From positions 1,550,001 through 1,614,000 of the forward strand of contig NZ_CP072333.1 of assembly GCF_018127745.1 (NCBI RefSeq): a stretch of DNA of 64,000 nucleotides, given 5' to 3'. Under the pieces are notes generated by a model. That model did no database searches, was not told where the DNA came from, and worked only from the letters and a program-made list of their open reading frames with translations. The stretch's first letter is position 1; each line of letters starts with the position of its first letter. Positions 6,843 to 61,118 of the stretch are shown here, one piece after another. The translations under genes and the position numbers were made by a program. The DNA comes from Porphyromonas sp. oral taxon 275. GTDB lineage: Bacteria; Bacteroidota; Bacteroidia; Bacteroidales; Porphyromonadaceae.

Positions 6843-6940
6843 GAGGGATATCAGTCAGCCCTCTGAGTGCCGCCAGTCACCGCGCTGAGTACCGTCAGTC
6901 AGCCCTCTGAGGGTCGTCAGTCAAGCGGCTGAGGGATAGC
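6843..6940. repeat. 22-bp dyad repeat array 1
   Basis: Four full units begin at 6843, 6865, 6887 and 6909, exactly 22 bp apart, followed by a decayed fifth at 6931. The first unit reads GAGGGATATCAGTCAG plus six bases. The array lies in the 382-bp gap between the thioredoxin gene stop (7045) and the sppA start (6662). Apart from the array, that gap holds a terminator hairpin at 6976-7017 and the sppA promoter box. I see nothing else in 6700-6842. Confidence 0.85.
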
Positions 6941-6975
6941 GAGCAGGAGGAGAAAGGGTAGGTCTGGAAGAAGGG

Positions 6976-7017
6976 AGCCCGCCCCCACGTAGCGCTGAGG
7001 CTAGGTGGGGGCGGGCT
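6976..7017 (-). terminator. Terminator of the thioredoxin gene
   Basis: A 13-bp perfect GC-rich stem (AGCCCGCCCCCAC paired with GTGGGGGCGGGCT) encloses a 16-base loop, 27 bp beyond the stop at 7045. On the minus strand it is followed by a pyrimidine-rich CCCTTCTTCC stretch. Confidence 0.75.
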
Positions 7018-7044
7018 GCTTGGTTTAGGGGGGCGGGGGCGAGG

Positions 7045-8226
7045 CTAGAGCTTGCCGCCCGTCGTCTTGAGGATCTCGTCGAGCGTCTTGGCGATCCTCG
7101 CACCACGCAGGTCGCGGGCTACGATCTTGCCGTCAGGAGCGAAGAGGATGAGCTGAGGGATACCGCTGATACCATAGAGGTCAGTAGCCTCCTCCTTGTT
7201 GAAGATCTGAGGCCAGGGCAGCTTGAGCTCCTGGACAGCCTTCAGATAGTCCTCCATCTTATCCCAGACAGCGATGCCGAGGACCTGGAGACCCTTGGGG
7301 CCGTAGACCTCCAGAGCCTTCTTGAGGTGGGGCATCTCGGCGCGGCAGGGCCCGCACCAGGAGGCCCAGAAGTCTACCAGCGTGTAGTGCCCCTTGCCGA
7401 CATAGTCGCTGAGGCGCACCTCCTTCTGGTCGTCGCTGAGGCCCTTGAAGTCCTGGAACATCGCCCCGGGCTGCGTGGCCTCGAGCTTGCGACGGCTGTC
7501 GAGGTACTCCTGCACACGGGGGTCCTGCTGCACAGCCTTACCAGCGCGGGAGACGTAGCTCTCGGCCTTGGCGAGGTCGACACTGGAGCCGCGCATGAGT
7601 TCGGTCAGGGCGTAGAAGCCGAGCCCGTCGTCCTTGTGCATGTCGAGGACAGCCAAGAGACGAGGCTCGAGGCCGCTGTAGAGCTCGTTTAGGATGGCCT
7701 CGCACTTGGCATCGCGCTCCTCAGGGGTGAGCGTGGTGTCCTTGCGAGCAGCCTTGTAGCGCCCGAGGAAGCCATCGGCATAGTTCTCGATCTCCTGGCT
7801 GAGCTTAGCGCGCTCGTCGTTGAGCGGCGCGCCCTTAGCGTGCGGGCCGTTCATGGGCGCCTGGATGACCCCCTCCTCGACAATGAAGGGAAGGGCATAG
7901 GTCATAGGCAGGTAAAGCTGCCCCGCGAAGCCATCCTCAGCTACGGAGCGGTCGAAGGTAAACTTACCCCCCTCGATCTTGGTGCTGTCGGCGGGCTTCT
8001 CCTTCATCGAGCCCTTAGTATAGAGATAGACCCACTGGCCGTTGTGCTTCTCGGGCACGGAGCCGAGGATAAGGTAGCGCCCAGGCTGGTGGGACGCTGG
8101 GCTGGCGACCACGGCGCGAGCCTCGGGACGTACGGCGGCCTTCTTGCGGCGCTGAGCCACGGCGGGTAGCGCGGTGGCTACAGCCAGCGCTAGGAGCCCG
8201 ACGCGGAGCCATTGATTCTTGTTCAT
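7045..8226 (-). CDS. Periplasmic TlpA-like thiol-disulfide protein with DUF4369 domain
   Basis: The 393-residue protein starts with a signal peptide (MNKNQWLRVGLLALAVATAL, cleavage near AVAQ). It has a DUF4369-like domain (about residues 48-140), a helical middle, and a C-terminal thioredoxin fold with the redox motif WCGPC (cysteines 291 and 294). Such proteins act in the periplasm or at the outer membrane in disulfide reduction or stress defence. The ATG at 8226 is chosen over one 60 bp upstream because it places the signal peptide at the N-terminus. It lies 62 bp behind the NanM-like gene and may be read from the same message, though a link to sialic acid use is not established. A strong hairpin follows. 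Confidence 0.88.
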   Translation of the reverse strand: MNKNQWLRVGLLALAVATALPAVAQRRKKAAVRPEARAVVASPASHQPGRYLILGSVPEKHNGQWVYLYTKGSMKEKPADSTKIEGGKFTFDRSVAEDGFAGQLYLPMTYALPFIVEEGVIQAPMNGPHAKGAPLNDERAKLSQEIENYADGFLGRYKAARKDTTLTPEERDAKCEAILNELYSGLEPRLLAVLDMHKDDGLGFYALTELMRGSSVDLAKAESYVSRAGKAVQQDPRVQEYLDSRRKLEATQPGAMFQDFKGLSDDQKEVRLSDYVGKGHYTLVDFWASWCGPCRAEMPHLKKALEVYGPKGLQVLGIAVWDKMEDYLKAVQELKLPWPQIFNKEEATDLYGISGIPQLILFAPDGKIVARDLRGARIAKTLDEILKTTGGKL

Positions 8227-8288
8227 TGCGTCTGTTCGATTATTTAAGGTGAATAGTAGCGAATGCTTGCTGTCTGCAGCGGGCACAG

Positions 8289-9473
8289 CTAAGGCTTAGC
8301 CTCGAGGCAGATGATCTGGGGCGTGCGTATGCCCGGCATCTGCTCGCCCTGCATCACGAGGACGCACTCGGGGCTGTAGACGAGGAGAGTGGCGCCAGCG
8401 CGAGCAAAGTGCTCGTCCGAGACGCGGCTGGGGAGCCAGCGCCCTCGCTTGGGGTCAAAGAAGCTGAGCGAGCGCTCGAAGCGGTACCACTCCTTAGGGT
8501 GGCGCAGGTAGCCCGCCTGCTCGGCCTCTATGCGCGCCCGCTCCTCGGGGGATAGCCCCGAGCTGGGGAGTGCTAGGAGCCGAATGCGCTCGAGGGCTGC
8601 GGAGAAGACCTCACGGTCGACGCCGCCAGCCCCAACAAGTGCCCCACCCCAGGGGAAGAGCAGGCCGCCCGAATGCTCGTTGGCCGGCGCTCTACGATAG
8701 TAGCCGCGCCAGCCCAGCTCGGGGCGTGAGGTGATGAGGCGGTATAGTCCCTGCTGTACCCGTGCTGGGCGCATCGGGCTACCGGGGGTGAAGCCTCCGC
8801 CGACCCAGAGCGTATCGCCCTGCATGGTCGCCACAGGCTGCACGTAGCCCTCGGGGTCGGGTAGATCCGCCAGGCGCTGCCAGCCACGCTCGGGTGCCGA
8901 GCGGTCGTAGCGCCATACGGCTCTGGAGGGACGGCCATCCTGATTGCCCCCGACTATATAAAGGTAGCTCCCCGAGGCAGCACCGGCCGCATTGTCGAGC
9001 GTGAAGGGGAGCGGAGCGAGCTCTCGGTAGCGCACTTTTCCTCCCTCGAGTGTCAGGGCATAGACCTCACGGCGCGCACCCTCTGGGCTCTGTCCGCCCA
9101 GCAGGAAGAGCGTGTCGGCCGTCTGGAGGCTCAGCCCGTAGGCCAGGGGACGAGGCAGCGCCGTCGTCGGGCGCCAGCGGAGCTCCGTGCCGTGGAGCTC
9201 GCCGAGGAAGGCCTGGCGGTAGAGGCGCTTGGCTCCGCCCTCGGCCGCAGGACGCTCGGGGAAGTTCGCCCCACCTGCGAAGAAGAGCAGCCCCCCCAGT
9301 CGCCCCGCCGCTGCCGCCGACACGCCGAGGCTGTCGTAGGCAGGGTCACCGAAGCGGCTCGGTAGCTCCCTATAGCTCAGCCTCGGCGCGCGTAGACTCG
9401 GGCTACAGGAGCCGAGGAGGAGCGCACCGAGGAGGAGCGGGAGCACGAGGGGCAGGGGGGAGCGGCTAGACAC
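8289..9473 (-). CDS. nanM: Kelch-repeat lipoprotein, probable N-acetylneuraminate epimerase (NanM-like)
   Basis: NanM-type mutarotases interconvert sialic acid anomers in the periplasm before uptake. This 394-residue protein has a lipoprotein signal ending LLGSC, then a six-bladed kelch pattern: LGGLLFFAGGANFPERP, DTLFLLGGQSPEG, SGSYLYIVGGNQDG, GDTLWVGGGFTPGSP and GGALVGAGGVDREV. The GANFPE motif is typical of the cyclically permuted mutarotase family. The start is a GTG at 9473 that overlaps the end of the YhcH-type gene by 8 bp, so coupling is likely; no ATG precedes the signal peptide. Context with an MFS transporter and a YhcH protein supports the role, but no nanA or nanE is present in the window. 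Confidence 0.82.
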   Translation of the reverse strand: MSSRSPLPLVLPLLLGALLLGSCSPSLRAPRLSYRELPSRFGDPAYDSLGVSAAAAGRLGGLLFFAGGANFPERPAAEGGAKRLYRQAFLGELHGTELRWRPTTALPRPLAYGLSLQTADTLFLLGGQSPEGARREVYALTLEGGKVRYRELAPLPFTLDNAAGAASGSYLYIVGGNQDGRPSRAVWRYDRSAPERGWQRLADLPDPEGYVQPVATMQGDTLWVGGGFTPGSPMRPARVQQGLYRLITSRPELGWRGYYRRAPANEHSGGLLFPWGGALVGAGGVDREVFSAALERIRLLALPSSGLSPEERARIEAEQAGYLRHPKEWYRFERSLSFFDPKRGRWLPSRVSDEHFARAGATLLVYSPECVLVMQGEQMPGIRTPQIICLEAKP

Positions 9474-9915
9474 GCGCCTTGATGATGAGCTTGCGGATCT
9501 TCTCGCCCTGCCCGATCAGCGGCGCATGGGCGTCCTCGGGGTAGACGATGGCGAAGTCTCCAGGCTGGAGATCGACGTAGCTCGTGGGGGTGTCGTCGTA
9601 GAGGACGAAGTCATTCTCCACGTCGAAGGCCGCACGTGGGCGCTCGCAGCTGTCGGTGCTGCGCCAGCCGATGCGCTCACGTCCCTCCAGGAGGACATGG
9701 ATGTCGAGGTAGGCCTGATGGGCCTCCAGTGGCTGGTCGGCCTGGAGGACGGTCGCGGGCTCGACGTTGTTGATGAAGAGCGTGTCGCCCTCCAGCTCGA
9801 TGCGGCCGAGCTCGGCATGCAGGAGGTCGTGCTCCTTGACGTAGGCGAAGACGCGTGCGAAGAGGGGGTGGAGCGCCTCGTAGCGGGCGCTATCCTTGAG
9901 TGTACCTAGTACCAT
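9466..9915 (-). CDS. YhcH/YjgK/YiaL family protein (sialic-acid associated, NanQ-like)
   Basis: This 149-residue cupin-like protein belongs to the family formerly called the beta-galactosidase beta subunit. In E. coli the member YhcH (NanQ) travels with the nan operon and is thought to open or anomerise sialic acid. Visible family features are the DAHLDIHV-type segment (here EAHQAYLDIHVLLEGRERIG), the FVLYDDTPTSY stretch and FAIVYPEDAHAPLIG, which carries probable metal-binding histidine and acidic residues. It follows the transporter by 42 bp and overlaps the NanM-like gene by 8 bp. The exact reaction here is inferred from context. Confidence 0.85.
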   Translation of the reverse strand: MVLGTLKDSARYEALHPLFARVFAYVKEHDLLHAELGRIELEGDTLFINNVEPATVLQADQPLEAHQAYLDIHVLLEGRERIGWRSTDSCERPRAAFDVENDFVLYDDTPTSYVDLQPGDFAIVYPEDAHAPLIGQGEKIRKLIIKARV

Positions 9916-9957
9916 GAGCGTAGGGTGTATATATAATGTATAGGAGGAGCGAGGGGA

Positions 9958-11211
9958 CTACTCCATATTGTCCGTGGTGGGGCGCAGGAGGCTGAGCTGT
10001 ATCGCTAGGGCCACAAGGACGATGCCCCCCAGCAGGACGAAGCCAAAGCCGAGGTTGCCCTCATCCTTCCAGCGACCCAGTACCTGCGTCACCGCAGCCC
10101 CTGCGAAGACGCCTATCATATTCATGAAGCCGTAGGCCGTAGCGCGTAGGCGGGAGGGGACGAACTGGCAGAGGATAGGCATATTGTTCGCGTCGAACAT
10201 CCCGTAGCCCACGCCGAAGAGGATCCCAGCCCCGACGACGGCGACCGTGGAGTGCCCGTAGCCGAGCAGCATCAGCGAGGGTACGGTCAGCGCCAGCCCT
10301 ATAGCGCCCGTATAGATACGTCCGCGGAGGTTGCGCTTAACCCAGCGGTCGGAGAGCGTCCCCCCGACGAGTACCCCGACGAAGGAGGCCGCTGCGATGG
10401 TGATGGTAGAGAGGGGGCCGGCGGCGCTCATCTCGATCCCGAGGTTCTCGGAGAAGAGGGTCGGCAGCCAGTTCTTCGTAGCCCAGCCGGGGAGACTAGG
10501 GACGGCGAAGTAGATGAGAATGGCCCAGAAGGCGACGTTCTGGAAGAGCCAGGCGAAGCTCTGCCCTAGGCTGCGGAGGGTGAAGCTCTCGGCGGGCTTG
10601 GCCGAGGCAGAGGCAGCGGGCGCCTTCTTCGGCATCTCGTGCAGGAAGAGCAGCAGTACCCCAGCGTAGACCATCCCGATGATCCCAAAGGTGAAGAAGG
10701 TCGTATGCCAGCTGTAGGCCGAGGCGAGCGTGGCACCGAAGCCCCCAATCGCCTGCCCCATATAGAGCCCCGTCATGTGGATCCCTACGGCCAGCGAGCG
10801 GCTCTTGCCCTCGTGGTAGTCGGCAATCAGCGAGAGGCCTGCGGGGATGTAGAGGGCCTCACTGACCCCCATCAGGGCACGTAGCACCTTGAGCGTGGTG
10901 AAGTCATTGGCCACCCCCATGAGGAAGGTCACGAGCGACCAGATGAAGATACTCCCGACGATGAGCCACTTGCGGTTGACGCGATCAGAGATAGCTCCAG
11001 CGAAGGGGCTCACACAGCCATAGATCCAGAGGAAGATGGCCATGAGGATGCCGAAGTTCTCCGCGCTCTGCAGCTCGGTGATGTCCAGCATCATCGCATC
11101 CTTCATCGTGCTGAGCATCTGACGGTCCATATAGTTCAGGAGCGCCACGACCCAGAGGAGAGCGACCACGAGCCACGGGTAATAGCTCTTGCTACGTAGT
11201 GAGGTAAACAT
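9958..11211 (-). CDS. nanT: MFS transporter, probable sialic acid permease (NanT type)
   Basis: A 417-residue inner-membrane protein with twelve predicted hydrophobic helices and the MFS signature between helices 2 and 3 (GAISDRVNRKWL). The N-terminal LNYMDRQMLSTMK resembles the anion:cation symporter branch that includes hexuronate and Bacteroidota sialate carriers. Neighbouring NanM-like and YhcH-like genes make N-acetylneuraminate the best guess for substrate; a sugar acid such as a hexuronate is the alternative. The gene leads the operon, with a good TATCTTTG/TTG promoter 59 bp upstream of the start. Confidence 0.72.
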   Translation of the reverse strand: MFTSLRSKSYYPWLVVALLWVVALLNYMDRQMLSTMKDAMMLDITELQSAENFGILMAIFLWIYGCVSPFAGAISDRVNRKWLIVGSIFIWSLVTFLMGVANDFTTLKVLRALMGVSEALYIPAGLSLIADYHEGKSRSLAVGIHMTGLYMGQAIGGFGATLASAYSWHTTFFTFGIIGMVYAGVLLLFLHEMPKKAPAASASAKPAESFTLRSLGQSFAWLFQNVAFWAILIYFAVPSLPGWATKNWLPTLFSENLGIEMSAAGPLSTITIAAASFVGVLVGGTLSDRWVKRNLRGRIYTGAIGLALTVPSLMLLGYGHSTVAVVGAGILFGVGYGMFDANNMPILCQFVPSRLRATAYGFMNMIGVFAGAAVTQVLGRWKDEGNLGFGFVLLGGIVLVALAIQLSLLRPTTDNME

Positions 11212-11269
11212 GCGTGTCTTTAGTAGTTAGTGAGCGGGTGAAAACAGATTGATTTACACTATACGAAGG

Positions 11270-11301
11270 CAAAGATAAGTATTTATCCGAGGAGCGTCCA
11301 A
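11270..11301 (-). promoter_or_regulatory. Promoter of the nanT operon
   Basis: On the minus strand TATCTTTG (11270-11277) is preceded, after a 21-bp spacer, by TTG (11299-11301). This fits the Bacteroidota -7/-33 arrangement and leaves a leader of about 55 bases before the nanT start. Confidence 0.7.
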
Positions 11302-11331
11302 GTTACGTGCCTCGGCCGTGTTCCCCCTCTG

Positions 11332-12441
11332 CTATCGCCTCACGCCCTGCCCGTAGTCGAGGGTGAAGAGCTCCCGGCTACCCTCGGGCCAGTCCCTCAG
11401 CTGAGCTCGGTGCGCCAGTACGCCCATCGTGCAGCGCAGGTTGATCTCCACGGCGGGATGCAGTGCGAGGACCTCGCCTCGGCGGTAGACGAAGAGGTCT
11501 ATACCTATATATCCGACGTAGCTCGAGCCCGCGAGCTGCTCGCTGAGGTAGGCCTCGTGCAGCGCGATCAGAGCCGCCAGCTCCCGCTCGGGGACGAGCG
11601 CCCTGAGCCGCTCCCCGAGCTGCTGCTGCGTCCACAGCACATTGCCCGCATAGGCGCCACGCTCGGAGGTGACGAAGTGCGAGTAGCCGACGAAGTGCAC
11701 CGCGCCCGTCTCGAGGCGCTCGTACTCTAGGGCCCAGTTGGCCACCACCTGCCAGTAGGGCTCGAGGCTCACCGAGCCCAGGCGCTGGCAGCTGCCGACG
11801 GCGGAGGCGAGCTCGCGCGCCTCGGGCAGCGCCGAGACGAGCTGCACGCCGCGCCCCGAGGAGCTGTAGGGACGCTTGAGCACGAGCCGCGCACCCGCCG
11901 CCTGCTCCGAGCCGAGTCTCCGCCAGAGCTGGAGGAGCCGCCGCTCGGTCTCGGCACGATCCGCCCCCGCCTCCACCCAGTGCGCCCGTAGTGCCTCGGG
12001 ATAGCCAAGCTCGCGGCAGCAGCGCTCCACGAGCCCCGCGCAGCCTCGACGATGCGCCAGGCGGCGGTAGGGCACATCCAGCTCGGGCAGCAGCAGGCGA
12101 TAAGGAGCTAGGCAGGGCGCTGCCGTCAGTTCCTTGAGGATATGCGGCTCCAGCACCCAGGGCTTGACCTCCAGTACCGTCCCCGCCTCGGGAGGACGCG
12201 GCAGCTCCGCTCCCTCATGATCGAGGAGGCGTGCCGCGCTATCCTCCAGCGCCGGCAGATAGAGGTAGTCGCCCTGCTCTGCGAGTAAACGCAAGAGGTG
12301 CGTCGCCTCATAGCGTAGGCGACGCACCTCTCGGCTGGGACTATAGTGCTGCTGGGCTGGGAGGCGCAGAGCCTCCTCTCCCCCAGCGTTGAAGACCCAG
12401 AGGCGTGCTGTGGGACTAACCGCGGCGCTTGAGCTCGTCAC
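11332..12441 (-). CDS. ATP-grasp fold protein of unknown substrate
   Basis: A 369-residue cytosolic protein. The beginning LWVFNAGGEEALRL resembles a Bacteroidota family with an N-terminal pre-ATP-grasp region. The central ARLVLKRPYSSSGRGVQLVS looks like the ATP-grasp lysine plus glycine-rich loop, and the C-terminal YIGIDLFVYRRG and EINLRCTMGVLAHR look like the metal-binding carboxylate/Asn region. ATP-grasp enzymes ligate a carboxylate to an amine or thiol; nothing identifies this substrate. The start is GTG at 12441, lying 26 bp inside the end of mscL. The base composition is very GC rich with many arginines. It may be a peptide or amino-acid ligase, but this is not shown. Confidence 0.75.
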   Translation of the reverse strand: MTSSSAAVSPTARLWVFNAGGEEALRLPAQQHYSPSREVRRLRYEATHLLRLLAEQGDYLYLPALEDSAARLLDHEGAELPRPPEAGTVLEVKPWVLEPHILKELTAAPCLAPYRLLLPELDVPYRRLAHRRGCAGLVERCCRELGYPEALRAHWVEAGADRAETERRLLQLWRRLGSEQAAGARLVLKRPYSSSGRGVQLVSALPEARELASAVGSCQRLGSVSLEPYWQVVANWALEYERLETGAVHFVGYSHFVTSERGAYAGNVLWTQQQLGERLRALVPERELAALIALHEAYLSEQLAGSSYVGYIGIDLFVYRRGEVLALHPAVEINLRCTMGVLAHRAQLRDWPEGSRELFTLDYGQGVRR

Positions 12442-12838
12442 GGATCTCGCGAAGCAGCTCGATATCCTCAGGCGTGGGAGCGGGTGCTGCAGGAGCTTCC
12501 TCTTCCTTCTTGCGGAAGCTGTTCATCAGCTTGATGATGCAGAAGATGGAGAGGGCGATGATGAAGAAGTCTACCGTCGTCTGGACGAAGTTCCCCCAGT
12601 TCAGCTCGATAGCCTCCTTGACTACGCTACCGTCAGCAGCGAGCTCTGCAGGGCGCAGGACAGCCTTAGCGTCAGCAAAGTTGCTGCCCGTGATGAGGCC
12701 GATGGGAGGCATGATGATGTCATTGACCAGCGAGGATACGATCTTGCCGAAGGCACCACCGATGATGATACCCACTGCCATATCCATGACGTTGCCCTTG
12801 AGGGCGAATTCCTTGAATTCCTGTACGAACTTGCTCAT
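12416..12838 (-). CDS. mscL: Large-conductance mechanosensitive channel
   Basis: MscL opens under membrane tension during osmotic downshock and releases solutes. The 140-residue protein has the classical layout: amphipathic N-terminus (MSKFVQEFKEFALKGNV), pore helix VMDMAVGIIIGGAFGKIVSS, a periplasmic loop, second helix VDFFIIALSIFCIIKLMNSF, and a charged C-terminal bundle ending DELKRRG. The ATG at 12838 is the family start; an in-frame start 105 bp upstream would add an unrelated leader spanning the promoter. The ATP-grasp gene starts inside its last codons. Confidence 0.95.
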   Translation of the reverse strand: MSKFVQEFKEFALKGNVMDMAVGIIIGGAFGKIVSSLVNDIIMPPIGLITGSNFADAKAVLRPAELAADGSVVKEAIELNWGNFVQTTVDFFIIALSIFCIIKLMNSFRKKEEEAPAAPAPTPEDIELLREIRDELKRRG

Positions 12839-12893
12839 AAACTTTGGTTGATTATCAATGTCTGTCACCCTATACGAGTCGCATAGTGGTGTA

Positions 12894-12901
12894 CAAATAT
12901 A
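12894..12901 (-). promoter_or_regulatory. -7 promoter box for mscL
   Basis: TATATTTG on the minus strand, 55 bp before the mscL ATG. A second overlapping candidate, TATTTTTG, lies at 12903-12910. No clear -33 box accompanies either. Confidence 0.55.
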
Positions 12902-13016
12902 GCAAAAATACGTAAAGAAGTACGCTGCTATCCGCCTCAGCACCTGCCACCTGTAGCCCCGCCGCCTCGCCTCCGCCCCGAGCGGGCAGCGCCTCGTCCT
13001 AGGGCGGAGCTCCGTC

Positions 13017-13103
13017 GAGGGATATCCCTCAGGCCCCTCGAGGGATATCAGTCAGCGCCCTGAGGGACGGCAGTCAAGACGCTGAGGGATATCAGTCAGC
13101 GCA
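13017..13103. repeat. 22-bp dyad repeat array 2
   Basis: Units begin at 13017, 13040, 13062 and 13084 (spacings 23, 22, 22). The first core is the perfect palindrome GAGGGATATCCCTC; the second and fourth are the hybrid GAGGGATATCAGTC; the third has GAGGGACGGCAGTC. The left flank reads GAGCTCCGTC, as at other arrays. The array lies in the 607-bp gap between the divergent mscL and outer-membrane protein promoters. The gap also holds a small hairpin (CCCCTTAG/CTAAGGGG, 13107-13140) and a promoter at 13351-13380. The remainder shows no gene I can support. Confidence 0.85.
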
Positions 13104-17444: not shown

Positions 17445-17672
17445 GATGCTTGGTGATGGGATGAAACTTAATAATCTATGTACTCTAGTAACCTCTGAGA
17501 AGGCTCGGAGGTTGCGTCACAGCGAGCACTTAGCTCGGCGAAGGCTCGCCGAGGATGTCCGTCTTCCGCCCCCGAGGCTGGGCTAAGTGGCAAGCCTTCG
17601 CCCACCTACCTAAGCCCTCCCGCGATCGGGCAAGCTAAGGCGGAGCGCGGGCAGTGCCTACACCCCGCTCCC

Positions 17673-17755
17673 TAAGGGATATCCCTCAGAGGTCTGACTG
17701 CTATCCCTCACGGGCGTGACAGGCGTCCCTCAGCGCGCTGACTGATAGCTCTCAA
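17673..17755. repeat. 22-bp dyad repeat array 3
   Basis: Cores fall at a 22-bp phase with unit starts at 17673, 17695, 17717 and 17739. In this array the arms are mostly reversed: TGACTGCTATCCCTCA, TGACAGGCGTCCCTCA and a decayed TGACTGATAGCTCTCA, preceded by the palindromic AAGGGATATCCCTC. The array occupies part of the 412-bp gap 17445-17856. That gap also contains the terminator at 17778-17826 and a small GC-rich hairpin near 17533-17552. No gene was found in it. Confidence 0.82.
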
Positions 17756-17777
17756 CACCCCTCCCCCTAGTACGAAG

Positions 17778-27887: not shown

Positions 27888-28060
27888 CGGCTCCTCCCCT
27901 CGCTCCCTACCCGAGTGCGCCGCTGGGGCAAGCCGTCCAGCAGCCTAGCTCCAGCCGCTCCCAGCCGCCGCCCGCACAAGACTCCCAGCCCACCGCCCCA
28001 CGCCTCCCCCAAAGCTACTCCCAGCCCCACCACGAGCTGACTGCCTTACCCAAGCTCTGC

Positions 28061-28169
28061 GAGAGATATCCCTCAGCCTCGCCACTGGCGACACCCAGCG
28101 CTCCGACTGGCGGCACTCAGCGCGCTGACTGGCGGCACTCAGCGCGCTGACTGATATCCTTCACCGCCC
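28061..28169. repeat. 22-bp dyad repeat array 4
   Basis: Units are phased at 22 bp with starts at 28061, 28083 (decayed), 28104, 28126 and 28148. Cores include GAGAGATATCCCTCAG, then two nearly identical TGACTGGCGGCACTCAG-type units and TGACTGATATCCTTCA. Spacers are GCGCGC. The array is in the 565-bp gap between divergent ftsK and cysS and is followed by a 95-bp block (28189-28283) shared with array 5. The rest of the gap (27890-28050) is C-rich without a supported gene. Confidence 0.85.
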
Positions 28170-35770: not shown

Positions 35771-35922
35771 CGGATAATCCGACAGACGCCTGACGGTCAA
35801 GTATAATTTTGCTTAAGTGCAAGGATGCTAGCCATAAGCCCCAGCCTCGCAGCGAGGATCGAACAGCCCCGCCCCAAGGCGACACCCCTACTCCAGCGAG
35901 GCGTCAGCCTTACCCGAGCTCC

Positions 35923-36033
35923 GTGAGGGATAGCCGTCACGGCGCTGAGTGATACCCCTCAGCCTCGCCACTGGCGGCACTCAGCGCTTTGACTGGCGGC
36001 ACTCAGCGGGCTGACTGATACCCCTCACGGGGG
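35923..36033. repeat. 22-bp dyad repeat array 5
   Basis: About five units at 22- to 23-bp phase: a TGAGGGATAGCCGTCA core, TGAGTGATACCCCTCA, two CACTGGCGGCACTCAG-type cores and TGACTGATACCCCTCA. The left flank is GAGCTCCG. The array lies in the 494-bp gap between the divergent prenyl synthase and lipoprotein genes. It is followed by the second copy of the 95-bp block. The stretch 35821-35920 shows nothing else. Confidence 0.84.
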
Positions 36034-37140: not shown

Positions 37141-37263
37141 GTGTATTCTACAGACAGGCTTCGATACCTGAACCTAGATACGACAACTACCAGCGTACGC
37201 ATTAGCCTCTCCTCGGGCGGCGCCAAGGCTTGGAGTGCGCCGTCAGCCTTGCCCGGAGCTCCG

Positions 37264-37373
37264 CGAGGAATAGCCGTCACAGCGCTGACTGCTATCCCTC
37301 AGCTATTTGACTGGCGGCACTCGGCGCCGTGACTGGCGGCACTCAGAGGGCTGAGGGATATCCCTCACGGGGG
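37264..37373. repeat. 22-bp dyad repeat array 6
   Basis: Units start at about 37264, then 37286, 37308, 37330 and 37352, 22 bp apart. Cores are GAGGAATAGCCGTCAC, TGACTGCTATCCCTCA, TGACTGGCGGCACTCG, TGACTGGCGGCACTCA and the palindrome TGAGGGATATCCCTCA. The left flank is GGAGCTCCGC and the right flank CGGGGGCTCC, as in array 5. The 446-bp gap 37083-37528 also contains the palindrome at 37107-37140 and the pyrB promoter box; 37380-37495 shows nothing further. Confidence 0.86.
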
Positions 37374-42200: not shown

Positions 42201-42412
42201 CCGAGGGCTATCGAGGCTAAGGTAGAGGAAGGCTTTAGGCTTCGCTGGCCGCTACGAGCGGTAAGGGAGGCGAAGCGCCCGCCCCTTGGGACGCTCCCGA
42301 GCTTAGCCCCCTGCCCAAGCCGAGCGCAGCCCTTATCCTTATCCTCTCTACCCAGTGAACCGAGCGTGGAGCACCTGCCCCGCTGTGGTCACACGCTAGG
42401 GGGAGGGCCGCT

Positions 42413-42500
42413 GAGGGATATCCCTGAGGAGGCTGAGGGACGGCAGTCAGCACGCTGAGGGACGACAGTCAGCAGGCTGAGGGATATCCCTCACGGAGCT
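42413..42500. repeat. 22-bp dyad repeat array 7
   Basis: Four perfect 22-bp steps (42413, 42435, 42457, 42479). Cores are GAGGGATATCCCTGAG, GAGGGACGGCAGTCAG, GAGGGACGACAGTCAG and GAGGGATATCCCTCAC. The right flank CGGAGCTG is the reverse of the GAGCTCCG flank seen elsewhere. The array ends 48 bp before the thrS promoter box, in the 385-bp gap between mutS2 and thrS. Stretch 42201-42410 has no gene or hairpin I would support. Confidence 0.88.
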
Positions 42501-46104: not shown

Positions 46105-46303
46105 AAACTGTAGCAGTCAGCGAGCCGGGAGACAACAGCGGCGAGGGTGAGGAGTTTCAATCAGCGAAACGAAGGATAGCCATCAGCGAAACAACGCTGT
46201 AGCAGTCAATGAGCTGAAAGACGGCTGTGGCGAGCTTGAGGGGCGTCAGTCAGCGCCGTAAGGGACGGCAGTCAGCGAGCTGAGGGATATCCCTCACGAA
46301 GGC
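46105..46303. repeat. 22-bp dyad repeat array 8, longest and most decayed
   Basis: Nine steps of 22 bp can be followed from 46105 to 46303. The last three units are canonical (GAGGGGCGTCAGTCAG, AAGGGACGGCAGTCAG, GAGGGATATCCCTCAC), while the first six are diverged. Two of these carry an unusual spacer ending CGAAAC. The array lies in the 565-bp gap between rplT and the second Tricorn-like gene, which also holds the terminator at 46012-46057 and the promoter box at 46511. The stretch 46310-46500 shows nothing else. Confidence 0.75.
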
Positions 46304-49972: not shown

Positions 49973-50128
49973 TGCATCCCGTCCCCCAGCTTATCCACCG
50001 ACCTATCCCCACTATCCACCGCCCTAGGCTGCAGCACCGCCCCACGCTGCCCCTCCACTACTCCGCATCAAGGACAGGCGCAGGAGCGCCCCCTACCCAG
50101 CGCGCTGCGCCTCTAGGGGAGGCGTGCT

Positions 50129-50216
50129 GAGGGATATCAGTGGGCGCCGTGAGGGACGTCCGTGAGCCGCGTGAGGGATAGCAGTCAGCCCCGTGAGGGA
50201 TATCAGTCAGCAAGCT
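50129..50216. repeat. 22-bp dyad repeat array 9
   Basis: Four exact 22-bp steps (50129, 50151, 50173, 50195). Cores are GAGGGATATCAGTGGG, GAGGGACGTCCGTGAG, GAGGGATAGCAGTCAG and GAGGGATATCAGTCAG; spacers are GCGCCGT-like. The array lies in the 554-bp gap between the Tricorn-like gene and kdsC. The rest of the gap holds a terminator (49923-49972) and a promoter box (50417); 49975-50120 is C-rich and otherwise featureless. Confidence 0.88.
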
Positions 50217-50416
50217 GAGCGCAGGCTGTCGCGGCACTGAGTCTTGGCACGGCCTTTGCTAAGAGTCTTAGAGGAGCGGCGGCGAGAGCTATAGGCGGGC
50301 GCGCCCTTAGCCTAGGAGGCAGGGGCTGCGAGGCCACTCACCCCGCCTAACCTCCGAAGCAGCTAGCGCGGGCTCAGCCCCAAGGGCACGGGAATACAAG
50401 TAGGCGAAATTTGAGC

Positions 50417-52793: not shown

Positions 52794-52816
52794 TACCGCA
52801 CTCCCCTAGAGCTATG

Positions 52817-54591: not shown

Positions 54592-54610
54592 CATAAGGGG
54601 GAGCTCGTCT

Positions 54611-54698
54611 GAAGGATATCAGTCAGGGCGCTGAGGGACGTCAGTCAGCACCTCGAGGGATATCAGTCAAGGAGCTAAGGGCTATCCCTCGCGAAGCG
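54611..54698. repeat. 22-bp dyad repeat array 10, between convergent genes
   Basis: Four exact 22-bp steps (54611, 54633, 54655, 54677). Cores are GAAGGATATCAGTCAG, GAGGGACGTCAGTCAG, GAGGGATATCAGTCAA and AAGGGCTATCCCTCGC. It is the only array not upstream of any gene: it lies between the sulfatase (plus) and the alpha-2-macroglobulin-like gene (minus), flanked by a terminator on each side. The 504-bp gap otherwise shows only GC-rich featureless DNA at 54700-54890. Confidence 0.88.
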
Positions 54699-54926: not shown

Positions 54927-54971
54927 GCTTATCGGGATGGCGGCGGAGGCAGAGCGCGTGCGCCTGACGGC

Positions 54972-57900
54972 CTACTCTGTCTTGAGCTCAGAGGTGGTCC
55001 GCTGCTCGGGCGATACCGCCGTATGGGCGCTATACTCCGAGACGTAGAGGCTCTCCAGTGTCGTGACGACACCACTATATACCCCGGGGCGCGTCACCCA
55101 CTGGTCATAGTAGAGCTCCGTCGTCCCTGAGGTCAGCCGATCGACGAAGATATCCGTCCGTCCATCGCGAGGCACGACGTAGGCGTTGCCATATCTGATG
55201 GAGGGATAGAAGGGCTTCTGCTCGACGGGCTCGGCATAGCCTGGACGCGGGTCGCTGATCTTGACGTAGTCGAGGCCTTGCTTGAGCTTGATGACGAGCT
55301 GGGTGCGTATGCGGGCCCCGATGGGGAGCAGCTCGCCCTCCTCGAGGGGACGGAGGACATCGCGCCCGCCCTCCGTCGTCACGAGATATTGCTGCCGTGT
55401 GAGGCTCAGGCCTTCGCCCCAGGCCTTGACCGCTGCCGTAGGGATGCTGTAGTGCAGGCGAGCGGCGCCCCAGATGAGGCTGCCATCCTTCTTGATGACC
55501 TGCAGCGCACCCTTGGGACGACGGCTGGGGCTAAGCTCAAGGCTCGCCGTACGCTGGCTGCCCGTGAGCCTGAAGTCCTCCCCGCCCTCGAGCGCGAGTC
55601 TGAGTTCCGTGGCCTGAGCTGTGCCCCATGCCTCGAGCTGGGGCTCCGTCAGCGCCTCCAGCGCCAGGACGCTGCAGAGGGGATCCTTCCAGACCATCGT
55701 GCGGCGCTGGGTCAAGAGCCAGCGCTGCAGGCGCGGCACGAGGGAGCTATAGGCAGGGTCGAGGCGGAAGGCGCGTAGGGTCTCGACGGCCAGCGGCACC
55801 CCTGCCGAGCGACTCCAGTAGGGGATCTCCGCGGGCTGGGCAAAGAAGCTCATCGCGCCCTCATCCGAGAGGTGCTGGGCGAGGACCTTCAGCAGTATAG
55901 GCAGCTGCGCTCTGTGCTGCGGGGCTTGCTTGAGGACGTAGGCGATCTTCGCCAGATCCGTGACGGGGGCTTCCTTAGCCCGCTCACTCAGCAGACGCTG
56001 GTAGTGGCCGAGCATCGCCGCCAGCGCAGCCGAGCTCGGCACCGCTAGCTGCTGCGTGAGCTGCGCCCGCATATAGAGGTAGTCGAGCGGGATGTCGTAG
56101 TAGCCCCAGGGCCCGGGCTTGGATACACGAGCACGGTCCTCCTTGAGGCGCTGGTAGCGCTCGAGTTCCTCACGATCCATATAGGGCTGTGCCTCCCTCA
56201 GGAGCCCGAGGAGCTCCTGACGCTGGGGGGACTTAGCCTCCAGCAGCTCCAGCGTGGGCAGCAGGATGGCGATGACCTGCTGGCTGATATAGGCATCAGG
56301 CCTCCAGCCCTCGAACCATCCCCAGGTCGCCTCATTGCGTGCGGCCTTGAGCTCAGCGATACGCTGGCGCAGCTCGTGGGCATGATCCTTGGCGGCGAGG
56401 AAGTCCAGCAGCCTGCGCTCGGCCTCGAGCTCCCGCTTGAGCTCGTGGTACCAGGGGCTCTTGGCCGCCTCTACGGTGCGTGCCGCCACGAGGCTATCGC
56501 TGCGGTGTAGGCTCTGTCTACGGGCGGCGAGCCAAGCAGCGAAGCCGCGCGTCTGCTGTAGGCGCAGCACCTTGGCCTCGGCATAGAGACTGGCGGCCAG
56601 CGCGGGCGTACTCTTGTCCTCAGGCTCGGCGAGCTGGGGCAGCGCACCGAGGGCGAGGGCGAGCGGACTGGTCTCGAGCTGCAGCTCCAGGCGTGCTCGG
56701 CCGAGCCCCTGACCTAGGGGAGCCAGCAGGCTATCTAGGAAAAGCGTCTTCGTGCCCGCGCCCTCGAAGCTGAAGCTGAGGCCATCACTGAGCTGGGTCT
56801 CGTCACTGAGTAGCGGCAGTCTGTGCTGCTCCCCATCGCTGTAGCGGCGCCCCTGGGCCAGTACGCGCAGGCCGATCGAGTCGGCCGAGAGCGTAGGGAT
56901 CGAGAGGGGCAGCTGCAGCGTTTGGCTGCCCTGAGGCGCTAGGCGGAAGGGCTGCGAGTTCTCGGAGAGGACGCGCTGCGTGCTTAGGTCGAAGAGCTCG
57001 AGTCGCAGCGTGCCCTGCTCCTCTTCACGGCTCATATTCACCAGCGTAGCGCTGAGGACAGGCCTATCCCCACGGCGCAGGAAGCGCGGCAGCTGGGGGC
57101 GGAGGGAGAAGTCACGGTAGCTAGTCACTAGGCGCTGCTCCTGATAGCGGCGCATATCGGGCGTGTGTGCCAGCAGCACGAGGCGCCAGCGGGTCAGGGC
57201 CTCAGGCATGCGGAAGCTCCAGCTGGCCGTCCCCGAGGCATCCGTCGTCAGCCGTGGGAGGAAGTAGGCACTCTCGGCGAAGTCCTGACGCAGGGCCTTC
57301 GGCTCCTCTGCCACGTCTATCGGCGCAGCCTGATCCGCCTTCGCCGCAGCGCCTCGGAGCACGCTGGGAGCAGCGGCGAAGGCAGGCCCTATGATGCCGT
57401 CCATCCTCCCGGAGAACACCTCGGGCAGCTGGATATCCCCCCTGCCCATGCGTATGGGCATGCGTCGGCCACGGCCCAGCCAGCGGTAGCGGCGAGGCTG
57501 CGGCCCCGCTGCGAGGGCGTCGTGGACGAAGGAGCCACCACCTCTCTGAGCCTCACCCCATAGGTCCTCACCATAGACCGAGCGGGCGGGGCTCAGCCCC
57601 CAGCGATAGCCTCGGGGGAGCCTCGGCTCCATGTAGGACGGGTATTCGTCCATGAGCTGAAGGCTCGGCCTACTGAGTCTGAGGCGGCCGAAGATATCCA
57701 GCGCCGCATCGTACATCCAGGTGGAGACGGCAGCGCCAGCTACGGGCTTGCCTCCCGAGGTCAGCTGCACGCTCCAGCGCTCCTCGGCTCCGGGCTGCGT
57801 GCGGTCACGGAGGCTGGTCCACTTGAGCTCCAGCAGCGGTGCGGGCTGCTCTAGGGTGAAGCGCTCACTCGCACGGTAGAGACGGCCCTGATAGACGGTG

Positions 57901-60872
57901 TAGAGCTGGACCTCCAGCTGGTCGGGCAGCTTATCCTTAGCGGGGAGAGGGAGGGTGAAGAGCTCGATGCGGCCAGCCTTGCTCCGCAGCACACCGCGCG
58001 CCAGCTCCCCATAGCGGTGATGGACGACGTAGTGGATGTAGCCACCCTCAAGCCCGCTCACCCAGTGCAGACGGGCTGGGCGCTGGGCGCTGTAGGTCGA
58101 GTCTGCACGGAGGGCTAAGAGTGGGGGCACGAAGCCCGCGATCTGCTGATCGCGGCGGCTATCGAAGAGGTAAACGCGGCGATAGCCCTCGTAGCGCGTG
58201 CCGCCCTTATAGTGCGCCTTGTAGCGCAGCGTATAGAGGCCCGCCGCTAGCTCTTGGGGCTCGAGCCAGGGGCTGAAGGCTTGGCCTAGGGTTGTCTGCC
58301 CGCTGTGACGTAGCCTATCCCCCTCGTAGAGCTCGTAGTCGACCCGCATCGTGGAGTCCACCCACGCCGTCATGGGGTAGGTGAAGCGCAGCTCGGGCAG
58401 CGGGCGCGACAGATCCAGGAGCTCGGGGAGGTCTAGCTGGACCTCCCCGAGCACCTCGCCTAGGGCAAGGCTCAGGCTACGCTGTGTCGTCTCGCCTGCC
58501 TCGTCTGTGGCCGTCACCTCCACGCGGTAGCTATAGCTGCCGTGGTCCTGCTCGTCCTGCTCTAGCTGACGGCGCAGGGCGCCTAGATCCAGCGGCAGGG
58601 CGAAGGCGCCATCTGCCCCCGAGCGCAGCGTGCTATCCAGGAGCACACGGGGCGAGGCATAGTCATAGATCGAGCGCCACGGGCGCCACAGCTGCTCGGC
58701 ACGCAGTACGCAGCGTAGGCGTGCCCGCTCGACGGGCTCACCACTGAGGCGGCGCAGCTGCCCCTTGACGCTCAGCAGGGCATCCGCGGGATAGGGCCTG
58801 GGCGGCTCCTCGAGCTGGAGCTCGAGGGCGTGACGCTTGTACTCGAGGAGCTGTGCGAAGGCCTGCGCCTGGGGCTGTCGGTACTGATAGCCCTGGGGCT
58901 CGACGAAGCGCGCACGCAGGTACAGCTGCCCGAGGAGGACCTCTGGAGCTAGGCGATGACTAGCATGATAGCGGCCCAGCTCATCGCTCCGTACCTCCTC
59001 GGACCACAGCAGCCCATCACGGGCATCACTCAGCTCGAGGCGTATGCGCTGCCCTCGAGCAGGGCGTGCCTGCCGTGCAAGGAAGCCCACATCGACAGCC
59101 TCCCCATAGATATGCATCACTTGGCCTGGGCGGTAGGCGGGGCGGTCAGTCGTCACCCACAGCTGGAGCCCGCGGGCTGCGAAGTCGATGGCAGGCTGGG
59201 GCTTCTCGCCATAGCCGTAGTACTTGATACGCAGTGGATCCCTGAGGTCGCGTGCCTGCAGGACGCTCGTCTGCGACTCATGGCGGTCGAGCAGGATGAG
59301 CCCGAGGCTATCGGTACGTAGGCTACCCGCTAGTGTGGGCAGGCTCTCGTGGCGCTTGTCATACCTATACTGAGCCAGCTCGAGCCCCGAGAGCGGGCGG
59401 CCCGTAGCTGCGTCGAGCCACTGCCGCGGCACGTGATTGGGGCTAGCGGAGGACCAGAGATCTAGCACCATGAAGGCACTGCTGACGAAGGTCTCCTCAT
59501 GCACCAAGGCGCGCTTCTGCGAGGCGCGGGGATCGAGCTCGGCGCGTACACGGACGAAGTAGTTGCGTCGCTGGGGTAGCTTGAGCTCTAGGACAAGATG
59601 CTTCCCCACCTTGGCGAGGCTATCGACGGGGAGCGAGCACTGCTTGACCAGCATGGGCTTATCCTGGGCACTCGGCCTCCAGTCCTCCCCGCGCTCGGTA
59701 GGCCTATAGACGCGTGGCGCCTCGTAGAGACTCACCTGCAGGCCACGTACGAGGTAGGCCGTGTCGAGACGTAGGGAGACCTTGTCTGGCATCCCCCAGG
59801 GCTGCTCCAGCTGGAGGGACATACTCGGCTCGAGGCGCTCAGCACGCGCCTGCCGCAGCTGCTTCAGTTCGTCGGGCTGCAGCTGCCCCGCCTGGCTGAG
59901 GAGGCGATCAGCGAAGCGCGCGGCCTCCAGCGGCTCGCTGCTGTAGAGGTCGACGAGATTGGGCGCTACGGAGCCAAAGTAGTGCTGGTGCTGATAGCGC
60001 TGGGCGAAGTGCTCGATACGCTCCATGGCCTGCCGCGCCGTCAGCCTCCCCGACTGGCTCTTCAGCTCGCGCTCCAGCACGAGGAAGTCCGCCAGGAGCG
60101 CGCTATAGCTGGTAGTCCCTGCACTGCGAGCCAAGGTGAGGAGCGCTGGCTGGGTGGGGAGTAAGCCCTCGGGATACCTACTGCCTCCCCCGCGCATATC
60201 GTGCAGGTAGTCGAGGAGCTCGAGGAGCGCCGAGATGCCCGTTTGCCCCGAGGCCTTCGTCCCCCCAGCTAGATCCAGCAGCTCAAGGTAAGGAGCAGGG
60301 ATCGGCTGCATGAGGGCAGAGCCCGCTCCTCGGAGCTGCTCCACCAGCTGGAGGTAGTAGCGATCCAGGTCGGCCTGATGCCAGTGCATGAGCTGGGAGA
60401 GCGGACGCGCCTTGACGGGAAGCGGCGTATCGAAGGCTGCGCCTCCACGCGTGCTATAGTTCGAGATCATACGTAGGCTGTAGAGCCCGAGGAGGATACG
60501 CTCACGGGGGCTGAGCCAAGGCGCTTGCTCGATGGAGGCTAGGGAAATCCCCAGCTGGGACTCCGCCGTACTCGGCCCCTTGAGGGAGTTCTTCACCTCT
60601 ACCAGTGCCGTAGTGGCCTCGAGGAGTACATCGAGGCGGCGCTGACCCGAGGCAGCATCGAAGAGCTCCTCTGCGGCCGTCACCGCGTCGCGGAGGTGAC
60701 GCTGTGCCTGGGCTGCCTTGAGCTTGGTGCGCAGCTGCTCGAGGCTAGGCTGTGCCTTGGTCTGCGTGCTCTGTATGCCCTGGGTCTGAGCCTTTAGCCC
60801 GAGGGGTACGCCCAGCGAGCCAAGCAGGCCCAGGCTGAGCATCCATATAGCAATCGAAGATCGTCGTGACAT
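54972..60872 (-). CDS. Giant alpha-2-macroglobulin-like exported protein without thioester
   Basis: A 1966-residue protein with signal peptide (MSRRSSIAIWMLSLGLLGSL, cleavage near LKAQ). A helical N-terminal region (about 30-370) precedes the macroglobulin-type beta domains, including the MG2-like LWVTTDRPAYRPGQVMHIYG. The A2M signature region reads ESAYFLPRLTTDASGTASW and MPEALTRWRLVLLAHTPD. The following helical toroid region, where CxEQ is expected, reads LPQLAEPEDKSTPALA and has no cysteine. The C-terminal domain ends with YDQWVTRPGVYSGVVTTLES. Bacterial homologues are periplasmic protease traps or surface proteins; lacking the thioester, this one would not bind covalently. ATG 60872 is chosen because it begins the signal peptide. 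Confidence 0.87.
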   Translation of the reverse strand: MSRRSSIAIWMLSLGLLGSLGVPLGLKAQTQGIQSTQTKAQPSLEQLRTKLKAAQAQRHLRDAVTAAEELFDAASGQRRLDVLLEATTALVEVKNSLKGPSTAESQLGISLASIEQAPWLSPRERILLGLYSLRMISNYSTRGGAAFDTPLPVKARPLSQLMHWHQADLDRYYLQLVEQLRGAGSALMQPIPAPYLELLDLAGGTKASGQTGISALLELLDYLHDMRGGGSRYPEGLLPTQPALLTLARSAGTTSYSALLADFLVLERELKSQSGRLTARQAMERIEHFAQRYQHQHYFGSVAPNLVDLYSSEPLEAARFADRLLSQAGQLQPDELKQLRQARAERLEPSMSLQLEQPWGMPDKVSLRLDTAYLVRGLQVSLYEAPRVYRPTERGEDWRPSAQDKPMLVKQCSLPVDSLAKVGKHLVLELKLPQRRNYFVRVRAELDPRASQKRALVHEETFVSSAFMVLDLWSSASPNHVPRQWLDAATGRPLSGLELAQYRYDKRHESLPTLAGSLRTDSLGLILLDRHESQTSVLQARDLRDPLRIKYYGYGEKPQPAIDFAARGLQLWVTTDRPAYRPGQVMHIYGEAVDVGFLARQARPARGQRIRLELSDARDGLLWSEEVRSDELGRYHASHRLAPEVLLGQLYLRARFVEPQGYQYRQPQAQAFAQLLEYKRHALELQLEEPPRPYPADALLSVKGQLRRLSGEPVERARLRCVLRAEQLWRPWRSIYDYASPRVLLDSTLRSGADGAFALPLDLGALRRQLEQDEQDHGSYSYRVEVTATDEAGETTQRSLSLALGEVLGEVQLDLPELLDLSRPLPELRFTYPMTAWVDSTMRVDYELYEGDRLRHSGQTTLGQAFSPWLEPQELAAGLYTLRYKAHYKGGTRYEGYRRVYLFDSRRDQQIAGFVPPLLALRADSTYSAQRPARLHWVSGLEGGYIHYVVHHRYGELARGVLRSKAGRIELFTLPLPAKDKLPDQLEVQLYTVYQGRLYRASERFTLEQPAPLLELKWTSLRDRTQPGAEERWSVQLTSGGKPVAGAAVSTWMYDAALDIFGRLRLSRPSLQLMDEYPSYMEPRLPRGYRWGLSPARSVYGEDLWGEAQRGGGSFVHDALAAGPQPRRYRWLGRGRRMPIRMGRGDIQLPEVFSGRMDGIIGPAFAAAPSVLRGAAAKADQAAPIDVAEEPKALRQDFAESAYFLPRLTTDASGTASWSFRMPEALTRWRLVLLAHTPDMRRYQEQRLVTSYRDFSLRPQLPRFLRRGDRPVLSATLVNMSREEEQGTLRLELFDLSTQRVLSENSQPFRLAPQGSQTLQLPLSIPTLSADSIGLRVLAQGRRYSDGEQHRLPLLSDETQLSDGLSFSFEGAGTKTLFLDSLLAPLGQGLGRARLELQLETSPLALALGALPQLAEPEDKSTPALAASLYAEAKVLRLQQTRGFAAWLAARRQSLHRSDSLVAARTVEAAKSPWYHELKRELEAERRLLDFLAAKDHAHELRQRIAELKAARNEATWGWFEGWRPDAYISQQVIAILLPTLELLEAKSPQRQELLGLLREAQPYMDREELERYQRLKEDRARVSKPGPWGYYDIPLDYLYMRAQLTQQLAVPSSAALAAMLGHYQRLLSERAKEAPVTDLAKIAYVLKQAPQHRAQLPILLKVLAQHLSDEGAMSFFAQPAEIPYWSRSAGVPLAVETLRAFRLDPAYSSLVPRLQRWLLTQRRTMVWKDPLCSVLALEALTEPQLEAWGTAQATELRLALEGGEDFRLTGSQRTASLELSPSRRPKGALQVIKKDGSLIWGAARLHYSIPTAAVKAWGEGLSLTRQQYLVTTEGGRDVLRPLEEGELLPIGARIRTQLVIKLKQGLDYVKISDPRPGYAEPVEQKPFYPSIRYGNAYVVPRDGRTDIFVDRLTSGTTELYYDQWVTRPGVYSGVVTTLESLYVSEYSAHTAVSPEQRTTSELKTE

Positions 60873-60929
60873 CGGATAGTGCTTTAGTAAGTGAAGGAGC
60901 CGTGCTCTAGCTCCCGTGAGGACTTTGCA

Positions 60930-60937
60930 CAAATGTA
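60930..60937 (-). promoter_or_regulatory. -7 promoter box for the alpha-2-macroglobulin-like gene
   Basis: TACATTTG on the minus strand, 57 bp upstream of the ATG. A second TTTCTTTG lies 10 bp further upstream. Confidence 0.55.
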
Positions 60938-61017
60938 CAAAGAAAGCGCTACCCCTTATCCCTGAGCCGCACCCCACCGAGCCACCGCCTGACATCGCGA
61001 GCTAAGTGCCCGCCGCC

Positions 61018-61118
61018 TGACCGATATCCGTCAGGCGGCTGAGGGATAAGTATGACGGCGCTGAGGGATAGCTGTCAGAGTGCTGACTGCTATCCATGAG
61101 GGAGCTGAGGTATAGCGG
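61018..61118. repeat. 22-bp dyad repeat array 11
   Basis: Units start at 61018, 61040, 61062, 61084 and 61106, each 22 bp apart. Cores are TGACCGATATCCGTCA, TGAGGGATAAGTATGA, TGAGGGATAGCTGTCA, TGACTGCTATCCATGA and a partial TGAGGTATAGC. The array is in the 418-bp gap between the alpha-2-macroglobulin-like gene start and the susD-like stop. The gap also holds the promoter box at 60930 and the terminator at 61191-61236. Confidence 0.84.

Follow-up and report, generated by a model that had tools for sequence, protein, structure and literature searches.

In the present study, we asked what kind of element recurs between the genes of a 64,000-nt stretch of Porphyromonas sp. oral taxon 275 (hereafter the window; the whole genome is 2.18 Mb), and what it might do there. 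A preliminary description had reported eleven arrays of short dyads repeated at a near-constant 22-bp step. Using a PWM trained on 22-mers, with the consensus CGCTGAGGGATATCCCTCAGCG, we recovered all eleven as chains at the positions given there. The plus-strand arrays were 6839-6948 (five units, the last degenerate; earlier given as 6843), 13013-13101 (four units with a first step of 23 bp, in a region divergent by gene calls), 42409-42496 (four units with the centres TA-CG-CG-TA, upstream of thrS), 46145-46299 (called as two chains of two and four units with a phase break between them), 50125-50234 (five units, the last degenerate), 54607-54694 (four units, in a convergent region by gene calls) and 61015-61124 (five units). 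The minus-strand arrays were 17670-17757 (four units), 28057-28166 (five units, in the divergent region upstream of an ftsK-like gene, a name taken from NCBIfam matches below the curated cut-off) and 35921-36030 (five units, in a divergent region), the regions again being assigned from gene calls. For the array at 37261-37370 (five units; PWM chain and gene calls), polarity was left unassigned. Further degenerate units may extend the array at 46145-46299 upstream to about 46105. A TATCTTTG box was located between the 42409-42496 array and thrS. It was also observed that the minus strand holds a 2007-aa open frame at 54972-60995, which had no NCBIfam match.

The anatomy of these arrays agreed with the earlier account in some respects and departed from it in others. 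Within the window chains, 39 of 40 steps were 22 bp and one was 23 bp, so the near-constant step held. The reported 16-bp dyad core was confirmed as a near-dyad, but perfect 16-bp dyads were rare: the window had 3 among its 52 units, and the larger sample described below had 15 among 233. Hybrid cores proved to be the rule among units, and the TGACTGATATCAGTCA core named earlier was absent as a unit from the window chains. GCGCGC was indeed the commonest spacer, but it accounted for only 12 of 194 spacers in the sample and 3 of 39 in the window. The successive dyads had also been placed on the same side of the DNA. The helical repeat of B-DNA is 10.5 bp; this placement is approximate because 22 bp corresponds to 2.1 turns and related families in congeners have steps of 21, 23 and 24 bp, and what stays fixed in each family is the distance from one dyad centre to the next.

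To describe the family at a larger scale, we scanned 464 kb of the same genome, consisting of the window and 20 stretches of 20 kb; the array density of this sample is biased upward because some stretches were picked where exact adjacent pairs already pointed to arrays. The PWM yielded 62 chains, or 61 arrays after the two halves of the 46105 array were joined (for the region counts, chains separated by under 60 bp were first joined), against 0 chains in two second-order Markov controls. Core matches agreeing at no fewer than 11 of the 12 fixed bases were found at 38 window positions, three of them outside arrays, whereas 2-3 such matches are expected in a first-order Markov sequence. Genome-wide, there were 77 exact adjacent unit pairs and 0 for the reversed-pattern control. 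An 88-position profile gave at least 156 matches in the genome (E up to 0.001), three of which sit side by side; with at most 150 first-look candidates scored per genome, this figure is a floor, and it counts matches, not places. Even so, it points to well over a hundred arrays, far more than the eleven first noticed. Among the 150 listed profile matches, 75 were on the plus strand and 75 on the minus strand, with 11-19 per 200-kb bin; apart from a few uneven bins (10 to 1 at 1.8-2.0 Mb), this split gave no sign of a chromosome-wide polarity. The spacing of these 150 listed matches along the chromosome was more even than random (CV 0.82 versus 0.99, 95% range 0.85-1.16).

The number and order of units were also regular. 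Four units were present in 47 of the 62 chains, five in nine, two in three, and six, eight and nine in one each. Judged by their centre bases, the 47 four-unit arrays read TA-CG-TA-TA in 22 cases, TA-CG-CG-TA in seven and TA-TA-CG-TA in five; the last unit was TA-centred in 47/47 and the first in 45/47, and unit 2 was CG-centred in 35/47. The arrays were polar as well. In the 59 chains of at least four units, 139/197 inner units carried GG in the left arm (TGAGGG-like) and 109/197 carried CT in the right arm (TGACTG-like), while the last unit had GG on the left in 49/59 and on the right in 34/59; this polarity is partly built in because the arm letters that were counted also served to set the orientation. 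Mean pairwise identity among 39 four-unit arrays was 0.78 in the core and 0.88 at key positions but 0.47 in the internal spacers, compared with 0.26 expected at random. Of 200 steps in the sample, 194 were 22 bp and six were 23 bp, a count that favours 22 because off-22 steps were penalised (21, 22 and 23 were allowed) and skipped units were assumed to span 44 bp. Together, the identities and the steps bore out the earlier suggestion of selection on spacing, and on the core as well.

Base covariation was informative about whether the arrays work as DNA or as RNA. The two centre bases changed jointly between TA and CG, being complementary at a frequency of 0.944 versus 0.559 with the halves shuffled (z 12.7), as would be expected for symmetrical DNA recognition. 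The preliminary description had listed transcribed hairpin strings among its candidates, and hairpin strings or terminators acting as RNA would explain why the units are near-palindromic. In addition, hairpins with an 8-bp perfect stem occurred within 150 bp of the gene on 15/43 gene-end sides (and 5/72 gene-start sides), though those at gene ends were located outside the arrays. Against an RNA role, the two variable arm positions were complementary less often than in shuffled halves (z -7.0 and -2.6), and the covarying central pair would occupy the loop of any hairpin. Just 7/61 arrays contained an 8-bp perfect stem, unlike the strong hairpin of an intrinsic terminator, RNAalifold returned 0 pairs for 35 aligned arrays (one strand), and the window had no Rfam match at gathering score. 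Arm covariation and RNAalifold likewise gave no sign of palindromes of the REP/BIME type that fold in RNA. Based on these results and on the -7 boxes lying between array and gene (see below), RNA hairpins were rejected, and we consider an RNA role highly improbable.

The position of the arrays relative to genes was determined from gene calls made with a simple codon-usage finder, which may miss short genes. None of the 62 chains in the sample overlapped a called gene, in agreement with the earlier statement that no array lies in a gene. In the region counts, which omit one of the 61 merged arrays located at a stretch edge, an array was present in 20/26 divergent regions and 28/53 tandem promoter-bearing regions, that is, in 48/79 promoter-bearing regions overall, with 31/79 lacking one. 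The proportion was 5/27 in convergent regions and 12/189 in regions without a promoter box, the convergent ones included. Placement partly follows available room because array-free regions are shorter than array-bearing ones. The 60 counted arrays occupied 60 distinct regions, none doubled, whereas 5000 simulated placements gave 13-14 doubled regions on average and no fewer than 7 in any run. Among the array-free regions, the 39 listed (31 with a promoter box and 8 others of at least 250 bp) contain no decaying arrays, because their best four units score -36 or lower.

The direction of promoter boxes was scored on 108 sides of 54 arrays, after arrays with a flank of more than 1000 bp or at a stretch edge had been dropped. 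On 55/70 gene-start sides, a TANNTTTG box, which we take to be the Bacteroidetes -7 consensus, lay between the array and the gene and pointed at the gene; about 3.8 boxes would be expected from the genome rate, and a box pointed back toward the array on only 2/70. The gene-end sides had a box toward the gene in 2/38 cases and toward the array in 2/38, and no promoter box was found inside the arrays. Because of this placement of boxes and gene-end hairpins, the arrays appear to occupy the gap past terminators and ahead of promoters. The location between transcription units reported earlier was thus borne out by gene calls, promoter boxes and region counts. Neither equal density inside genes nor a phase no better than chance, the two outcomes that the preliminary description had set against a functional array family, was observed in the sample.

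Binding sites in such positions could belong to a global transcription factor acting from upstream to adjust many promoters. Arrays were found upstream of promoter boxes in four species, and the 48/79 promoter-bearing regions with an array agree with this idea. However, the distance from array to -7 box ranged from 50 to 489 bp (median 170), and therefore no fixed contact with RNA polymerase is indicated; the array-adjacent genes are functionally unrelated (thrS, ftsK-like), and divergent regions carry a single array between both promoters. We consider regulation of this kind improbable.

The main rival to a host function is a short dispersed mobile or self-spreading repeat, MITE- or REP-like, which would have expanded separately in each species and survived in harmless intergenic gaps, its dyads serving as recognition sites of a mobiliser. 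Such a repeat would account for private motifs at about a hundred to several hundred places and for several families per genome (the congeners G004, G014 and G025, described below). It would also account for short conserved flanks, which extend to about -12 (TAGGGGGAGGGC-like) and +13, weakly to +25, and are near background beyond; the array ends are too blurred to define a target-site duplication. In the window, the 28057-28166 and 35921-36030 arrays have 114 bp of one flank in common at 90% identity, which may be the clearest sign of a larger unit having been copied. Near-identical four-unit cassettes at two loci of the congener G016 (L198 and L215, by eye) and G004 regions with two arrays point in the same direction. 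On the other hand, there was no excess of IS5-like TIRs: the best inverted 12-mer between 80-bp flanks averaged 9.24/12 in 58 arrays, the same value, 9.24 of 12, as between flanks of different arrays. Y1 transposase, the family searched, was present in 3/26 genomes and absent from G004, G014, G016 and G021, and a RAYT was rejected as general mobiliser. Nor does a mobile repeat sit easily with the lack of decayed copies in the listed regions, with the rule that our species never has two arrays in a region, or with a 22-bp spacing that is held while spacer sequence drifts. We regard a mobile repeat as possible but on balance unlikely. If this explanation is correct, the arrays are a repeat family without a known mobiliser, and the one-per-region rule is unexplained.

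Several other repeats and genes were observed near this material. Another dispersed repeat, distinct from the arrays and with matches some 100-295 bp long at 73-87% identity, adjoins several of them, namely in the flanks at L097:5832, L097:18735, L101:13735, L106:14176, L114:13130 and L114:17582. The left flanks at L102:11645 and L115:9215 have a 282-bp stretch in common (85%), possibly belonging to repeated RNA operons; the arrays there border long stretches without called genes. The sole Y1_Tnp gene found in the genome, of 151 aa, is located at L134:1480-1935.

When the profile of the 22-bp unit was scanned over the genome and its relatives, the family proved real and its motif private to the species. 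None of 60 relatives, a set that includes 25 congeners, had the pair pattern, and the 88-position profile had 0 matches in the 25 congeners, while the same architecture recurs in sampled congeners. G021, whose threonyl-tRNA synthetase (ThrS) is 93% identical, carries 23-bp arrays of CGAGTTACCATAACTCG, with 436 adjacent pairs (up to one mismatch) and 0 in the other 25 genomes. G004 (ThrS 94% identical) carries 22-bp arrays of GACCTATATAGGTC and GACCAGTACTGGTC, with 95 adjacent pairs at the same stringency and again 0 in the other 25 genomes. G014 (ThrS 94% identical) has three families, CGACCTACGGTAGGTCG (23), GACCCATGCATGGGTC (24) and AAACGTATACGTTT (22); more than one array family per genome was seen in G004, G014 and G025. 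By eye, sites in the closest sisters follow GANNN-core-NNNTC with 8 bp from TC to the next GA, and consensus cores of 4, 5 and 6 bp correspond to periods of 22, 23 and 24; the G025 arrays depart from this pattern. None of 37 arrays of at least three units in G021, G004 and G025 overlaps a called gene (three are at stretch edges), and boxes pointed toward the gene on 12/14 start sides in G021, 23/26 in G004 and 9/9 in G025. The occurrence of one array design in different, private sequences among sampled sister species suggests an unrecognised, fast-evolving marking of transcription-unit borders.

Unit number in these congeners bears on whether the arrays are functionless minisatellites of the BrickBuilt type, made by replication slippage. 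Slippage would suit a tandem period near two helical turns and the loose unit number of G004, where five units are commonest (11/21 arrays) within a range of 2 to 7. Elsewhere, however, the number is nearly fixed, at four in 47/62 chains of our species and five in 8/9 arrays of G021 and 7/9 of G025. The units are also ordered, and cores with the same index in different arrays are more alike (0.78) than cores inside one array (0.73). The probability of a slippage origin without function is, in our view, very small.

Across the genus, a phased match with a period of 20-25 was found in 17/19 sampled congeners (at least 40 kb of most), some of which may be coding repeats, and a strict dyad score was passed in 9/19; this column-shuffle score understates dyads elsewhere because it is weak, with only 12/74 matches of our own species passing z 2.5. 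Synteny identified few intergenic regions shared with congeners, and three genes (ftsK, an S41-like gene and thrS) were therefore followed, comparing 26, 14 and 24 upstream loci, respectively (one row that was a masked-sequence artefact was left out). Arrays were located upstream of all three in our species, G021 and G016, although the ftsK array of G021 does not carry the motif of the main G021 family, and the S41 gene of G016, at only 40% identity, might be paralogous. G011, G024 and G002 have arrays upstream of ftsK and thrS (854 bp away for G002 ftsK), G013 and G005 have them near thrS, and in G004 and G025 the thrS array is found only at more than 1 kb. The corresponding regions of the remaining congeners, including many ftsK and thrS loci, had no array. 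Arrays at orthologous promoters are weak evidence for a conserved position because arrays are so dense. Outside the genus, 78 loci gave eight lag-22 matches, and 22-bp dyad arrays were recognised by eye in Phocaeicola vulgatus, Bacteroides mediterraneensis, a Parabacteroides and two Bacteroidaceae MAGs. The array of P. vulgatus ATCC 8482 (L051:17421-17515) consists of about four units of CACATACGTATGTGTG by eye. Within the genus, an array at L017:1883-1984, in a MAG that appears to equal G016, is laid out as one long inverted repeat.

From the observed architecture, unit order, spacing, placement, one-per-region rule (in our species), private motif and recurrence in congeners, we infer a protein, contacts between its dimers, a nucleoprotein block and a boundary function. 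Half-sites that are conserved, centres that change symmetrically, spacers that drift in sequence but keep their length, an ordered series of units and a nearly constant unit number fit a protein array on duplex DNA, and the upstream position, the single array per region and the preference for divergent regions fit a boundary. Each array would act as duplex DNA over some 90-110 bp, in which four (sometimes five) ordered imperfect dyads with the half-site TGANNG follow one another at an unvarying 22-bp step. An abundant putative DNA-binding protein may sit on adjacent dyads as dimers that touch one another, building a compact block between transcription units and upstream of promoters. The probable role of this block is that of a boundary, keeping adjacent promoter regions (above all divergent ones) apart topologically or shielding them from read-through. 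Sister species would retain the architecture and the kind of place but swap the half-sites as binding specificity turns over, so that protein and sites likely co-evolve. Protein-array and chromosome-organising sites, both proposed in the preliminary description, remain the live class of explanation. No binding protein was found, Y1 transposase and Lrp/AsnC failing as genus-wide partners. Several observations speak against a boundary: the 31/79 promoter-bearing regions and the many congener ftsK and thrS upstream regions without an array, the variable array-to-box distance, the two arrays in each of three of 16 G004 regions (of different core classes in two of these, by eye) and the G025 boxes that point toward the array on 4/9 start sides and 3/5 end sides. 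Full replacement of the motif between close sisters would also be expected of a mobile repeat that turns over. Overall, we judge the chances to be about even that the arrays are duplex-DNA sites of a dimeric protein that forms a nucleoprotein block at transcription-unit borders.

A wider proposal, which we offer tentatively and hold to be somewhat less probable than its opposite, is that a general border element is in use throughout Porphyromonas and probably across the Bacteroidales, made of four to five ordered dyads with a family-specific spacing of 21-24 bp and placed upstream of most long promoter regions. Read by a rapidly evolving protein, it would give every species a genome-wide punctuation code of its own, exchanged completely from one sister species to the next. 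For a bacterial element found at most divergent promoter regions (20/26 in our species), it is unusual that the architecture recurs while the sequence is replaced between species whose threonyl-tRNA synthetases are 93-94% identical. If the arrays are protein-bound, they would represent a novel type of boundary, of the chromosome or of transcription, whose evolving code could be read directly in genomes.

Several known systems resemble the arrays in part. REP and BIME elements are species-specific intergenic palindromic units in ordered mosaics; BIMEs form hairpins in transcripts and frequently follow genes, and a RAYT is associated with REPs. The arrays are likewise numerous, species-specific, intergenic and ordered, but they show no RNA structure and lie upstream of promoters, and 23/26 genomes have no Y1 transposase. 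The Lrp/AsnC octamer wraps phased dyads, and its four dimers would fit four phased dyads. However, such a reader should accompany the arrays, whereas PF01037, present as one copy in 19/26 genomes, is missing in G011, G012, G017 and G024, in all four of which the lag test indicates phased arrays; a genus-wide Lrp/AsnC reader was thus not supported. CRISPR arrays, with near-identical repeats and long unique spacers, differ from the diverged units and 6-bp spacers found here.

A limited literature search returned BrickBuilt papers and nothing else relevant, and we do not claim the arrays as previously unreported. According to the available part of its description, the BrickBuilt MITE of P. gingivalis consists of intergenic 23-nt tandem units in 1 to 22.8 copies, with leader and tail segments and IS5-like TIRs (PMC4596501). 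The arrays resemble it in genus, strictly intergenic placement (0/62 chains overlap called genes) and tandem units of near-equal length, and the preliminary description had raised a relationship. Unlike the variable copies, leader/tail segments and TIRs given in that part of the account (PMC4596501), the arrays mostly comprise four ordered dyads. Their units are diverged and of 22 bp (four in 47/62 chains), in place of low-mismatch 23-nt units in widely variable number, and their flanks end at about -12/+13, in place of a leader and a tail tens to hundreds of bp long. In the congener G025, a genome of P. gingivalis size (2,354,886 bp), BrickBuilt-like and dyad arrays coexist as two separate classes: 23-nt arrays, some beside the published BrickBuilt TIR, and, in 440 kb, nine 22-bp arrays built of GATTTATATATAAATC, of which seven have five units. 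Given this coexistence and the lack of a TIR excess, membership in BrickBuilt or another TIR-MITE family was not supported. Further 22-bp dyad families, GAAACCACTAGTAGTTT, TTTCCACTAGTGGAAA and GTATATAAGGAAATTTATTTCC, were observed in G025 at L270, L277, L278, L279 and L280. As far as the available part of the 2018 P. gingivalis reannotation goes, short repeats of 3 to 31 bp were left unannotated (PMC5771137). The available part of the BrickBuilt paper also mentions 22-nt tandem repeats in P. gingivalis W83, at exact locations unidentified there, which have the same period and genus as the arrays; that part mentions neither private motifs nor a position relative to promoters (PMC4596501), whereas the arrays reported here have both.
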